This document shows positions 4,897 to 21,464 of a DNA stretch of 64,000 bases, in pieces. Origin of the DNA: Halostella limicola (lineage in GTDB: Archaea > Halobacteriota > Halobacteria > Halobacteriales > Natronoarchaeaceae). The stretch's first letter is position 1. Every line of letters begins with the position of its first letter. The notes below the pieces were generated by a model, which saw only the letters and a list, made by a program, of their open reading frames with translations, was not told the origin of the DNA and did no database searches. The stretch lies in contig NZ_RCDI01000001.1 of the NCBI RefSeq assembly GCF_003675875.1, positions 124,001 to 188,000 of the forward strand, read 5' to 3'. The position numbers and the translations under genes are program-made.

Positions 4897-4971
4897 GGTC
4901 GCCGGTTCGGGGGCTGCGAGCAAAAGCGCGTCGGGGAAACCGCTTTCCCGCGCGAACGACGAGTACGCGAC

Positions 4972-16691: not shown

Positions 16692-18032
16692 CTACAGCGC
16701 TTCCTTGTACGCTTCGAGCGTCTTCTCCACGTCCTCCTCCGTGTGGGCGTAGCTGATGAACTGCGACTCGAACTGGTTCTGGCTGAGGAACACGCCCTGC
16801 TCCTTCATCTTCGGCCAGAACACGCGCCGCCAGCGGTCGGTCTCGCAGTTCGCCACGTCCGCGCCGTTCTTCGGGCAGTGGTCGTAGCGCGGGCTCTCGG
16901 GGCGCTGGCGACAGCCGGCCTCGCACTGGCCGGACAGGTCGCGGGGGGCATCCCGGGTGAACAGCACCTTGAAGATGCTGTCGGTGCCGGCGACGGTGTA
17001 CTCAGGGGCCTGGTCGGCGACGATCTCGGTCAGCCCGCGCCGGAGCTTGTCGCCGAGCGCGTTGACGTGCTGGTACACGTCGTTCTCGGCGGCGTAGCGC
17101 AGCGTTTCGAGGCCGGCGGCCATCGTCACGGGGTGTCCGGAGAAGGTGCCGGCCTGGAACACGTCGCCGGAGGGGGTGAAGTGCTCGATGATCTCCGACT
17201 TGCCGCCGATCGCGCCAACGGGGTAGCCGCCGCCGATTATCTTGCCGAACGTGGTGACGTCGGGCGTGACGCCGAACTTGCCCTGGGCGCACTGGAGACC
17301 GCCGACGCGGAAGCCCGTGATCACCTCGTCGAAGATCAGCAGGGAGCCGTGGTCCTCGGTGAGGTCCCGGAGCGTCTCGTGGTAGCCGTCCTCCGGCATC
17401 ACGATGCCCTTGTTCGCGAGGATCGGCTCGACGAGGACGGTGGCGATGTCGTCGCCGTGCTCCTCGAACACCTCGTGGACGGCCTCCTCGTCGTTGAACG
17501 GGACGGGGAGCGTGTGCTGGGAGAACGACTGCGGGATGCCGGCGGTGGAGGGGCGGGGGTGGTCGGCGTCGCCCTCGACGAGCGTCGACTCCTGCGCGCC
17601 GTGGTAGCCGCCCTGCATGACGACGATCTTGTTCCGGCCCGTGTAGCCGCGGGCGAGGCGGACGGCGGAGACGGTCGCCTCGGTGCCGCTGTTGACGAAC
17701 CGGATCATCTCGACGCTGGGGACGTGGCGGGCGACGAACTCGGCGTGCTCGACCTCGATCTCCGTCGGCATGCCGTACATCGGCCCCTCGCTGGCGTGGG
17801 ACTGGACCGCCGCTTGCACCGGTTCGGGGGTGTCGTGGCCGTACAGCAGCGGGCCGAGCCCCATCACCCAGTCCACGTAGCGGTTGCCGTCGGCGTCGAT
17901 CAGGTGGCCGCCGTCCCCGCGCTGGGCGAACGGCGGGTACGGTTCGATCGCCGCCCGGACGGAGGAGTTGACGCCGCCGGGAATGACCGAGAGCGCGCGG
18001 TCGTAGAGGTCGCGGGACTCGTCGTGGTTCAT
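16692..18032 (-). CDS. hemL: Glutamate-1-semialdehyde 2,1-aminomutase
   Basis: A PLP enzyme that converts glutamate-1-semialdehyde to 5-aminolevulinate in the C5 pathway. It is 446 residues from ATG 18030-18032 (start product [14 protein letters not shown]). The PLP lysine lies in [18 protein letters not shown] and the Asp in [14 protein letters not shown]. An insertion near the C-terminus contains four cysteines (C370, C374, C386, C396: [18 protein letters not shown]) that bacterial GSA-AM lacks; I recall a similar segment in haloarchaeal homologues. It could bind a metal or cluster. hemB lies about 2.3 kb away, on the far side of amt. Confidence 0.95.
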
Positions 18033-18228
18033 GCCCGGCGTTTCGGACGGGGCGGTCAAAGAAGTAACGAGGTCGGCGAGCCAGCCCGCGTTCCGGCGAA
18101 ACGGCGGTCGGCCGGGCAACTGCGGAGGCCGGAACGGACGGAGAGAAAGCGGCGAAGGGGGCACCTCGGTGATAGCGGCGCGGATCGCGGCTCCGCGCGG
18201 GCCGGCGTCTCGGCGGTGACGCCCGGCC

Positions 18229-19896
18229 CTACACCGCGTCGGGCCCCCTGTTGCCGGTGCGCACCTGCAGGGCGTCCTCGACGGGCATCACGAAGATCTT
18301 GCCGTCGCCGGGCTCGCCCGTCGCCGCGCCGTCGCGGATCGCCTCGACCACGTCGTCGGCGGGGATGTCCGCGACGACGCACTCGACTTTCACCTTCTGG
18401 TGGAGGTCGACCGTGTACTCCTCGCCGCGCCACTGACCCGTCTTGGCGGGCTGGCTGCCGCGGCCGGAGACGTTCGTGACCGTCAGCGAGGGCGCGCCCA
18501 CCTCCGCGAGCGACTCCTTCACGTCGCCGAGGCGGTCCGGGCGGACGATGGCCGTGACCATCTTGATGGCTCCGTCGTTGGGGGCGCCGCCGTCCGTGCG
18601 AACGACTTCGGGACCGCCGTCGGTCGCGACGTCCGGCTTGCCGAACTCGGGGTAGGTGTCGACGCCGTGCTCGGAGACGTCGAGGCCCTCGCGCTCGTGG
18701 TCCGGGGAGACGCGGGCCTGGCCGACGGCCTTGAACAGGCCGAACACCGCCCCGGTCGCCGCGATCGTCCAGATCGCGATGACGGCGACGCCGACGACCT
18801 GCGAGACGAGCAGGTCGACCGCGAAGCCCTCGACGTGGAAGAACGGCAGCATGAGCGCGCCGACGACGCCCGCGGAGCCGTGGACGGGGAACACCGCGCA
18901 GACGTCGTCGATCTTCAGGCGCTTCTCGACGAAGCGGAAGACGATCGGCAGCTGCGCGCCGGCGACGAGGCCGGAGAGGAGGCCGCCGTACCAGGTGACG
19001 ACGTTCGCGGACGCCGTCACGCCGACGAGGCCGGCGAGCAGCCCGTTCGCGACGTACAGCGTGTCGACCTTCCCGGTCTTGTACAGCGACACCGCGCCCG
19101 CGCCGATGGCGCCGGCCGCCATGCCGAGGGTGGTGTTCAGGGCGACGCGGCCGACCGTCTCGTAGGCGCCGAGCACCAGCGAGCCGTCCTCGACGGCGAA
19201 CACCGTCGCTGCGGTGCCGACGTTGAAGCCGTACCAGCCGAACGCGAGGATGAGCGTCCCGAGCGCCGCGAACGTCATCGAGTGACCGGGGATGACGTTC
19301 ACGGTGCCGTCGGGGTTGTAGCGGTCCATCCGCGGCCCGAGGACCCAGGCGGCGGTGAGGCCGGCGATGCCGCCCATCCCGTGGACGATCATCCCGCCCG
19401 CGAAGTCGGCGAAGCCGAGCTCCGCGAGGAAGCCGCCGGCCCACGTGAAGCCGGTGACGACCGGGTAGATGACCGCGGCCAGCAGCAGCGTGTAGCTGAC
19501 GTACGCGCGGAGCTTCGCGCGGCCGGCCACCGCCCCGCTGACGATGGTCGCCGCCGTCATCGCGAACACCGCGCCGAACAGCCAGTCGACCCACGCGTTC
19601 ACGGAGTCCGGCGAGGTCGTCGAGAGGATCCCGCCGAACTCGGCGGTGCCGGTGACGCTCCCGACGAGCGCCGAGACGCCCGCGCCGACGAAGAAGAACG
19701 CGACGACGCCGATACTCCACGTGAGGAGGTTCTTCGTCAGCTGGTTCGCGACGTTCTTCGAGCGCACCTGGCCCGCCTCCAGCATGGCGAAGCCGGCGTG
19801 CATGAAGAAGATCAGGAAGGTAGCGACCAGCACCCACACCAGGTTCACGCCGTCGGCGATCACCTGCGGGTCGACCTGCAGCGGCGCGGTCGTCAC
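18229..19896 (-). CDS. amt: Ammonium transporter Amt fused to a PII (GlnK) regulatory domain
   Basis: A 555-residue fusion from GTG 19894-19896. Residues 1-395 are a full Amt channel of about 11 helices, with twin histidines H172 (VHGMGG) and H339 (PVHGSAG) of the ammonium pore. After an acidic linker, residues 444-555 form a complete PII domain, including a T-loop with Tyr494 (GEEYTVD), the KVKVECVV strand and the C-terminal [25 protein letters not shown] normally blocks Amt as a separate trimer in response to ATP/ADP and 2-oxoglutarate; here the inhibitor is tethered in cis. The start overlaps a 26-residue upstream ORF by GTGA. Confidence 0.95.
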
Positions 19897-19973
19897 GCGA
19901 GCGTCACCTCCGGATCGAACGACACCGGATCTATTTTGCGACGAACGTTTTCTATTTCGAGTCTGAGCGCCAT
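19893..19973 (-). CDS. 26-residue leader ORF overlapping amt
   Basis: ATG at 19971-19973 opens a 26-codon frame (begins [14 protein letters not shown], ends FDPEVTLA) whose TGA overlaps the amt GTG as GTGA. It is the first ATG after the likely amt promoter, and GGAGGTGA just before the junction could serve as ribosome-binding site for amt. The coding frame differs from that of amt, so it is not an N-terminal extension. Whether it is a functional leader peptide or chance is unknown. Confidence 0.4.
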
Positions 19974-20007
19974 GTTCGTATTCCAGCTCACGAGATAACG
20001 CCAATAC

Positions 20008-20030
20008 CGAGAACCATATAATGGTTCTCG
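20008..20030 (-). promoter_or_regulatory. Palindrome containing the likely amt TATA box
   Basis: A perfect inverted repeat, arms CGAGAACCAT and ATGGTTCTCG with a 3-bp ATA centre. Read on the minus strand its centre gives CATTATATGG, a good TATA box. Initiation about 25 bp downstream would place the leader ORF ATG (19973) about 20 nt into the mRNA. A repressor or nitrogen regulator at this site is inference. The rest of the 19974-20383 gap holds no convincing gene. Confidence 0.55.
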
Positions 20031-20383
20031 TTGACGTATGATTTATTCCCGAACCCCTAATTCGACGGGTGTCCGGAGTAATACTCGATATTACGCATAT
20101 AAGGTAGTTGAGCGACGAGGAACTGGACGGTCGTGATCGGGTATTTCGGACGTTCGTCCACTGCGGTGATCGGGGCGTTCGGGCCGTTTTTCGGCATCCA
20201 CCGTGAGACGCATGGGTTCCTGACTGTTGCGTGGACGAACGGTCGGCGCCGCGGCGCGGGCGCGGTGAACGGTCGGGCGAAAGCGTCCGCGCGTCGTGCG
20301 AACGAACGCACACACGTGTTCGGCGACCGAGAAAACGAACGGTCGGTCCGGGACGGCGGCGGGGTGGACGGACGGTCGGCCGC

Positions 20384-21364
20384 TCAGAGCGCGTCCGCCA
20401 CGTCCTCCGCGAAGTACGTGAGGATGAGGTCCGCGCCCGCACGCTTGATCGACAGCAGCGACTCGACCGCGGTCGCTTCGAGGTCCAGCCAGCCCTTCTC
20501 GGCGGCGGCGTGGATCATGGCGTACTCGCCGGAGACGTTGTACGCGGCGACCGGGTGGTCGAACTCCTCACGCACGTCCCGGACCACGTCGAGGTACGGG
20601 AGCGCGGGCTTGACCATCAGCGCGTCTGCGCCCTCCTCGACGTCCAACGCCGCCTCGCGCATCGCCTCGCGGCGGTTCGCCGGGTCCATCTGGTAGTGGC
20701 GTCGGTCGCCGAAGGCGGGCGCGCCGTCGGCGGCGTCGCGGAACGGGCCGTAGAAGGCGCTCTCGTACTTCACGGCGTAGCTCATGATCGGCACGTGCTC
20801 GTGGCCGGCGGCGTCGAGGCCGTCGCGGATGGCCCCGACCATCCCGTCGGTCATGCTGCTCGGCGCGACCATGTCCGCGCCGGCCTCGGCGTGGGAGACG
20901 GCCGTCTCCGCCAGCAGGTCGAGCGTCTCGTCGTTGCGGACGGTCACGTCGGGGTCGTCCTCGGCGTGGTCCTCGAGCACCCCGCAGTGCCCGTGCTCGG
21001 TGTACTCGCAGAGACAGACGTCCGTGATCACGTACGCGTCGGTCGCCTCGGTGATCCGGTGTGTCGCCGCCTGGACGACGCCGTCCTCGGCCCAGGCGCG
21101 GCTGCCGCGGTCGTCCTTCGACTCCGGGACGCCGAACAGTATCACCGACTCGATGCCGGTGGCGAGCAGTTCCTCCACGCGGTCGACGGCCTCGTCCACG
21201 GGTACGCGCTCGTGGCCGGGCATCGACTCGATGGGGAGGCGCTCGTCGACCGTCGCGTCGACGAACACCGGCGCTATCAGGTCGTCGGGCGCGAGGTCGG
21301 TCTCGCTGACGAGGTCGCGGACGCCGTCCTGCCGGAGGCGTCGCGGGCGTCGGCTTCGGGTCAT
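20384..21364 (-). CDS. hemB: Delta-aminolevulinic acid dehydratase (porphobilinogen synthase)
   Basis: Condenses two 5-aminolevulinates to porphobilinogen. It is 326 residues from ATG 21362-21364. The metal-binding cysteine cluster [13 protein letters not shown] indicates the zinc-dependent type. The Schiff-base lysines lie in [17 protein letters not shown] and [40 protein letters not shown] is the usual family segment. Its neighbours are amt downstream on the same strand and a divergent DedA gene. Confidence 0.97.
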
Positions 21365-21464
21365 GGGCGTCCGTTGTGGTCCGGCACTAAAAGGCCCCCG
21401 GGTCGGGACACCCGCGCGCTGGTGTCGCAAGGCATATTAGCGGTCTGGTGGTCTGGGTAGACGA

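Follow-up and report, generated by a model that had tools for sequence, protein, structure and literature searches.

A conserved leader ORF overlapping the haloarchaeal amt-PII gene and a candidate operator array around its predicted promoter

Introduction

The nitrogen operator of archaeal NrpR has the consensus GGAA-N6-TTCC. A master regulator of the NrpR/NrpA type is, according to one study, not conserved in haloarchaea, where amt is induced on a poorer nitrogen source (PMC6801745). Work on H. salinarum describes activation of glnA by Lrp and, for a leaderless transcript beginning with GTG, a TATA box at -27 (PMC2894021). In H. volcanii, transcripts are described as mostly leaderless, and the part of that report cited here states that Shine-Dalgarno (SD) motifs are not used to initiate translation at 5' UTRs (PMC3986360).

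Two arrangements described in H. volcanii are among the closest to the one considered here. Overlapping genes are coupled through their stop/start overlap, with an SD contribution that varies, and the pairs that employ termination-reinitiation resemble the amt leader described below in having -4/-1 overlaps and an intragenic SD motif ahead of the downstream start (PMC6728339). Unlike in those pairs, the upstream partner of amt is a leader of 22-47 codons with no evident product, and it precedes this one gene class-wide. The second arrangement consists of 5'-UTR uORFs of 15-31 aa, mapped by dRNA-seq and tabulated for UTRs of 150-250 nt (PMC4983044). These are likewise short ORFs upstream of normal genes, although in the accessible sections of that study no ammonium gene is named and neither an operator nor an overlap geometry is described.

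In this report we analyze the amt locus in a 64,000-nt stretch of the Halostella limicola genome (contig NZ_RCDI01000001.1), which we call the window. Its amt gene encodes an Amt-PII fusion (Pfam Ammonium_transp at residues 20-415, E 6.8e-97; P-II at residues 445-548, E 5.3e-27) and is the only Amt copy in the genome. Given its comparison with haloarchaeal relatives, we consider it probable that amt-PII is translationally coupled to a leaderless leader ORF and that its expression is controlled through an array of TGGACRNNYGTCCA operators by a putative nitrogen regulator. Like NrpR operators, these candidate sites are dyads at the promoter of a nitrogen gene; they differ from NrpR operators in sequence and in that one copy lies within the transcribed region.

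Materials and Methods

Loci were picked by similarity with the fused Amt-PII protein as the query. The first set consisted of 80 haloarchaeal loci from one scan and, together with the window, numbered 81. The second set came from a separate draw of 40 relatives that was made independently of the leader, some of its genomes being shared with the first set. All of the evidence presented is comparative sequence, and the loci are related to one another, so the counts reported below do not represent independent events.

Results

A fusion-length amt frame was present in 74 of the 80 fetched loci, and the remaining six were from Haloferax, in which Amt spans 456-458 codons and GlnK is separate. The original prediction for this locus, made on the window only, was that an ATG about 35 bp past a palindrome at the TATA box opens a 26-codon leader whose stop overlaps the amt GTG and which is coupled to amt. 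The sequence elements named there are all present: ATG 19973 lies 35 nt from the edge of the palindrome and opens 26 codons, and the TGA at 19895-19893 overlaps the amt GTG at 19896-19894. The frame of this ATG continues upstream to GTG 19991, however, making the ATG codon 7 of 32. Coordinates of all features are collected in Table 1.

Table 1. Positions of features at the amt locus, numbered along the window; offsets are relative to the leader GTG.
Feature	Position	Strand	Remarks
amt-PII fusion gene	18229..19896	-	GTG start; Pfam domains; single Amt copy
Leader ORF	19893..19991	-	32 codons from GTG 19991; predicted leaderless; homologous frame in 81/81 loci
GTGA, leader stop/amt start overlap	19893..19896	-	-4 overlap; overlap in 81/81 loci
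GGAGGTGA, SD-like motif within leader	19904..19911	-	8-15 nt ahead of amt start; SD-like words in most loci
O3, dyad AAACGTTCGTC	19940..19950	.	Degenerate here; starts +41, inside leader; +41 in 67/98 loci; codon-level constraint
Palindrome CGAGAACCAT-TAT-ATGGTTCTCG	20008..20030	.	Both 10-nt arms perfect; TATA at centre
TATA box TTATAT	20016..20021	-	30 nt ahead of leader GTG
O2, dyad GGACACCCGTC	20064..20074	.	Starts -83; dyad at -83..-81 in 51/98 loci
CCTTATAT element	20097..20104	-	About -113; CCTTATA-like word at -113..-111 in 94/99 loci
O1, dyad GGACGAACGTCC	20148..20159	.	Starts -168; dyad at -167..-165 in 46/98 loci

Upstream of amt, a frame of 22-47 codons overlapping the amt start was found in every one of the 81 loci, compared with 22.1 expected from dinucleotide shuffles of the leaders. 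Stops are absent from the leader frame itself, whereas the other two frames contain 133 and 98. The overlap is -4 in 44 loci, -1 in 27, -7 in 9 and -8 in 1, such that the 1- or 4-nt stop/start overlap of coupled pairs occurs in 71 of the 81, among them the window (-4). In the second set, 25 of 29 amt loci had an intact frame with its end between -10 and +2 nt relative to the amt start; the exceptions were L111, where the frame is interrupted, L104, which has no frame, and L108 and L109, which are doubtful. Unfused amt1 paralogues have the same leader arrangement by inspection. Conservation of the leader ORF extends throughout Halobacteria. The comparison of amt upstream regions thus bears out the overlapping ORF of the original prediction, and the class-wide frame and overlap lend strong support to the idea of a coupled leader, its start being the part that calls for revision.

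Translation of the leader likely begins at GTG 19991, 18 nt further upstream, rather than at ATG 19973. The distance from the first T of the TATA box to the leader start is 30 nt in nearly all loci, which fits the spacing of leaderless transcripts, and 89 of 98 distinct loci have GTG or ATG as the first codon at the predicted start. The start is shifted one or two codons later in L006, L025 and L030. In L021 and L040 the only start is the ATG at codon 7, and L045 has ACG at the predicted start; as these last three loci have no start codon at the predicted transcription start site (TSS) or in the next two codons, the leader is perhaps not strictly leaderless everywhere.

A dyad with the consensus TGGACRNNYGTCCA recurs at offsets that are fixed from the leader start, at approximately -166, -82 and +41, and is also found at about -52 in 15 of 98 loci; the background is a median of one locus per three-position bin (98 loci). 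Many loci lack the dyad or carry it in degenerate form, with about half having no good copy at -166 or -82. Where the +41 copy falls within the leader, codon choice is strongly skewed: (i) Arg at codon 17 is encoded by CGT in 51 of 55 leaders versus 140 of 1139 (12%) in amt genes and (ii) Asp at codon 15 is encoded by GAC in 53 of 53 cases versus 57 of 130 elsewhere in leaders. These biases argue that the constraint at +41 is on nucleotides and not on residues. Given that the same dyad occurs both upstream and in the leader at fixed offsets, with constraint at the DNA level, a DNA-binding protein is indicated. Symmetric covariation of the dyad halves did not rise above shuffling, a result that counts neither for nor against the dyad, and the case for it consequently rests on position and codon-level constraint. 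As the dyad was first spotted by eye and then counted in the same loci, the exact consensus is fitted to them, with positional clustering and codon bias giving the safer support. The CCTTATA word near -113 precedes the -82 dyad by about 28 nt and is a possible second TATA box, marking a second promoter, or a possible activator site.

An alternative account of the leader is that it only loads ribosomes, its constitutive coupling ensuring that a gene with a displaced TSS gets translated, and that the dyads are unrelated or of minor importance. This would explain every translation feature of the locus with no regulator, and haloarchaea commonly couple overlapping genes (PMC6728339). We nevertheless regard it as unlikely, since dyads at fixed offsets upstream of and inside the leader, constrained at the DNA level, point to a DNA-binding protein.

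With regard to the promoter itself, the perfect palindrome with 10-bp arms and the TATA box at its centre was found as originally described. It had been proposed as the site of a dimeric repressor that would block the TATA box, with the coupled leader as an additional layer of control. Beyond the perfection of the palindrome and its position, this scenario draws on L003, the nearest relative (Amt 96% identical), which keeps 8 of the 10 arm pairs, one of them through a two-sided change. At the homologous position in the 79 other loci of the 81, however, at most 5 of 10 arm pairs are found, and the palindrome is absent from the homologous promoter position of three members of the same genus (L005, L085 and L087). 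Lack of conservation in close relatives, which the original prediction named as grounds for its refutation, is what most of the genus shows for the palindrome. The 23-bp sequence occurs once in the genome when up to 3 mismatches are allowed. Moreover, the left arm overlaps a conserved promoter region upstream of the TATA box (consensus tcAAc.c.AA...TTATaTa), the right arm shows little conservation, and perfect repeats with arms of at least 10 nt and loops of 0-10 number 4 in the window versus 1-7 in resampled sequence. As the palindrome is specific to one lineage and such repeats occur at chance density, occlusion of the TATA box finds no support, and we think the dimeric repressor very unlikely. 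On the strength of the 81 loci, the genus relatives and the chance density in the window, we rejected the palindrome as an operator; we take it to be specific to this lineage and probably accidental, or at most a refinement there. The TGGACRNNYGTCCA dyad appears to be the better candidate operator.

We also considered whether the product or the RNA of the leader could be the functional element. Mean pS and mean pN of the leader are 0.22 and 0.16, respectively (26 non-overlapping pairs), and differences are spread over codon positions 1, 2 and 3 (137, 107 and 123). With pN near pS and differences distributed in this manner, the leader peptide is, on the pairs compared, weakly constrained. There was no RNA structure in excess in the leader (mean folding z of +0.24, with 2 of 99 loci below -2), and a riboswitch or attenuator structure was dropped on the basis of these 99 loci, as was a functional leader peptide on the basis of its weak constraint. 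The combination of a weakly constrained peptide and unstructured RNA suggests that the leader is a ribosome-delivery device.

These data bear on two more specific proposals. The Gln/Asn-rich N-terminus of the peptide (MIQNTN) might serve as a nitrogen sensor by pacing ribosomes according to amino-acid supply, much as in attenuation, and the N-terminal words VIQNTN and VIQHMN are indeed found in many loci. An attenuator would be expected to conserve its regulatory codon run as amino acids, though, and here Q and N are frequently replaced (VIKRTIM, VSWNTN, VKRYW, VSEHTN), pN is near pS and there is no RNA structure that could switch; a sensor peptide is accordingly highly improbable to our minds. 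The second proposal is that the product of the leader is a functional small protein, which might, for instance, regulate the transporter in the way that sP36 of Methanosarcina mazei regulates AmtB1 (PMC11456600). The conserved frame and that precedent speak for it, but we give it very little credence because constraint on the peptide is weak, its length ranges from 22 to 47 aa, the DNA dyad accounts for its most constrained residues and there is no Pfam match.

Returning to the dyad array as the favored regulatory element, we looked for a matching regulator and for further sites. The NrpR-type sequence GGAA-N6-TTCC occurs in 0 of 99 promoter regions and once in the window, at 4935, and the H. 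volcanii L-alanine motif AAAGACTAART has no exact occurrence in the 99 promoters and is absent from the window even when up to 2 mismatches are allowed; both were rejected as the identity of the site because they are absent from amt promoters. An Lrp/AsnC-like gene lies directly beside amt in several distant lineages (L022, L027, L038, L041, L044 and L071), this identity being confirmed by Pfam for L027 and L038 only. In the sections cited here, work on haloarchaeal Lrp/AsnC proteins reports activation of glnA by Lrp, and a binding motif like the amt dyad was not found there (PMC2894021, PMC8229911). The dyad is absent upstream of glnA and from the lrp-glnA intergenic region of this genome, and Lrp/AsnC as the amt regulator is thus only a lead. 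In a search of 195 genomes with two-dyad array patterns, most matches resembled coding sequence. Among the intergenic-looking ones, those that we could recognize by their sequence looked like the amt promoter (G000, G173, G156, G158 and G062); as this recognition covers part of the matches, the regulon search is not exhaustive, and no regulon emerged from it or from glnA.

Discussion

The most likely scenario explaining these observations is that amt-PII mRNA starts at the leader GTG, on which ribosomes would load as on any ordinary leaderless haloarchaeal transcript. They would translate the approximately 25-30 codons of the leader, terminate at the stop overlapping the amt start, and begin translation anew at that point, aided by the SD motif within the leader. 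Sites at about -166, -82 or -52, and +41 would form an operator array for a putative nitrogen regulator that is probably dimeric or multimeric; we infer both its binding and the sign of its effect. If transcription starts some 70-140 nt upstream, amt itself cannot be leaderless, and a leaderless micro-ORF ending on the amt start would solve this problem. An operator that has to keep a set distance from the TSS may be the reason for the spacer between promoter and gene, in which case the leader frame would keep the spacer around the +41 operator open to ribosomes.

In its broader form, our proposal is that the locus exemplifies a class-wide archaeal nitrogen-control module, with operators flanking the promoter and one of them fixed within a leaderless leader ORF from which ribosomes pass on to amt. 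We put this forward tentatively, as a claim whose chances fall a little short of even. If it is correct, the dyads would constitute a cis code for a haloarchaeal nitrogen regulator in a group where the NrpR-type master regulator is not conserved. The dyad at its fixed positions at amt offers a bait sequence for finding the regulator. The leader, for its part, represents a natural, class-wide and predicted leaderless micro-ORF that is apparently kept for ribosome delivery. For HVO_0086, the open-licence literature yielded one expression paper, the available text of which gives no TSS, and an earlier mapping of this TSS may exist.

Two further observations concern the setting of amt. In the window the gene is flanked by hemL and hemB (16692-18164 and 20384-21430), and neighbours of the hemL/hemB type recur downstream of amt in 55 and upstream in 45 of 80 loci; we offer no explanation for this linkage of ammonium uptake and tetrapyrrole synthesis. 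Finally, amt of L111 (genome G037) is broken into pieces and its leader, read from the GTG, stops prematurely; we take this to be a decaying copy.
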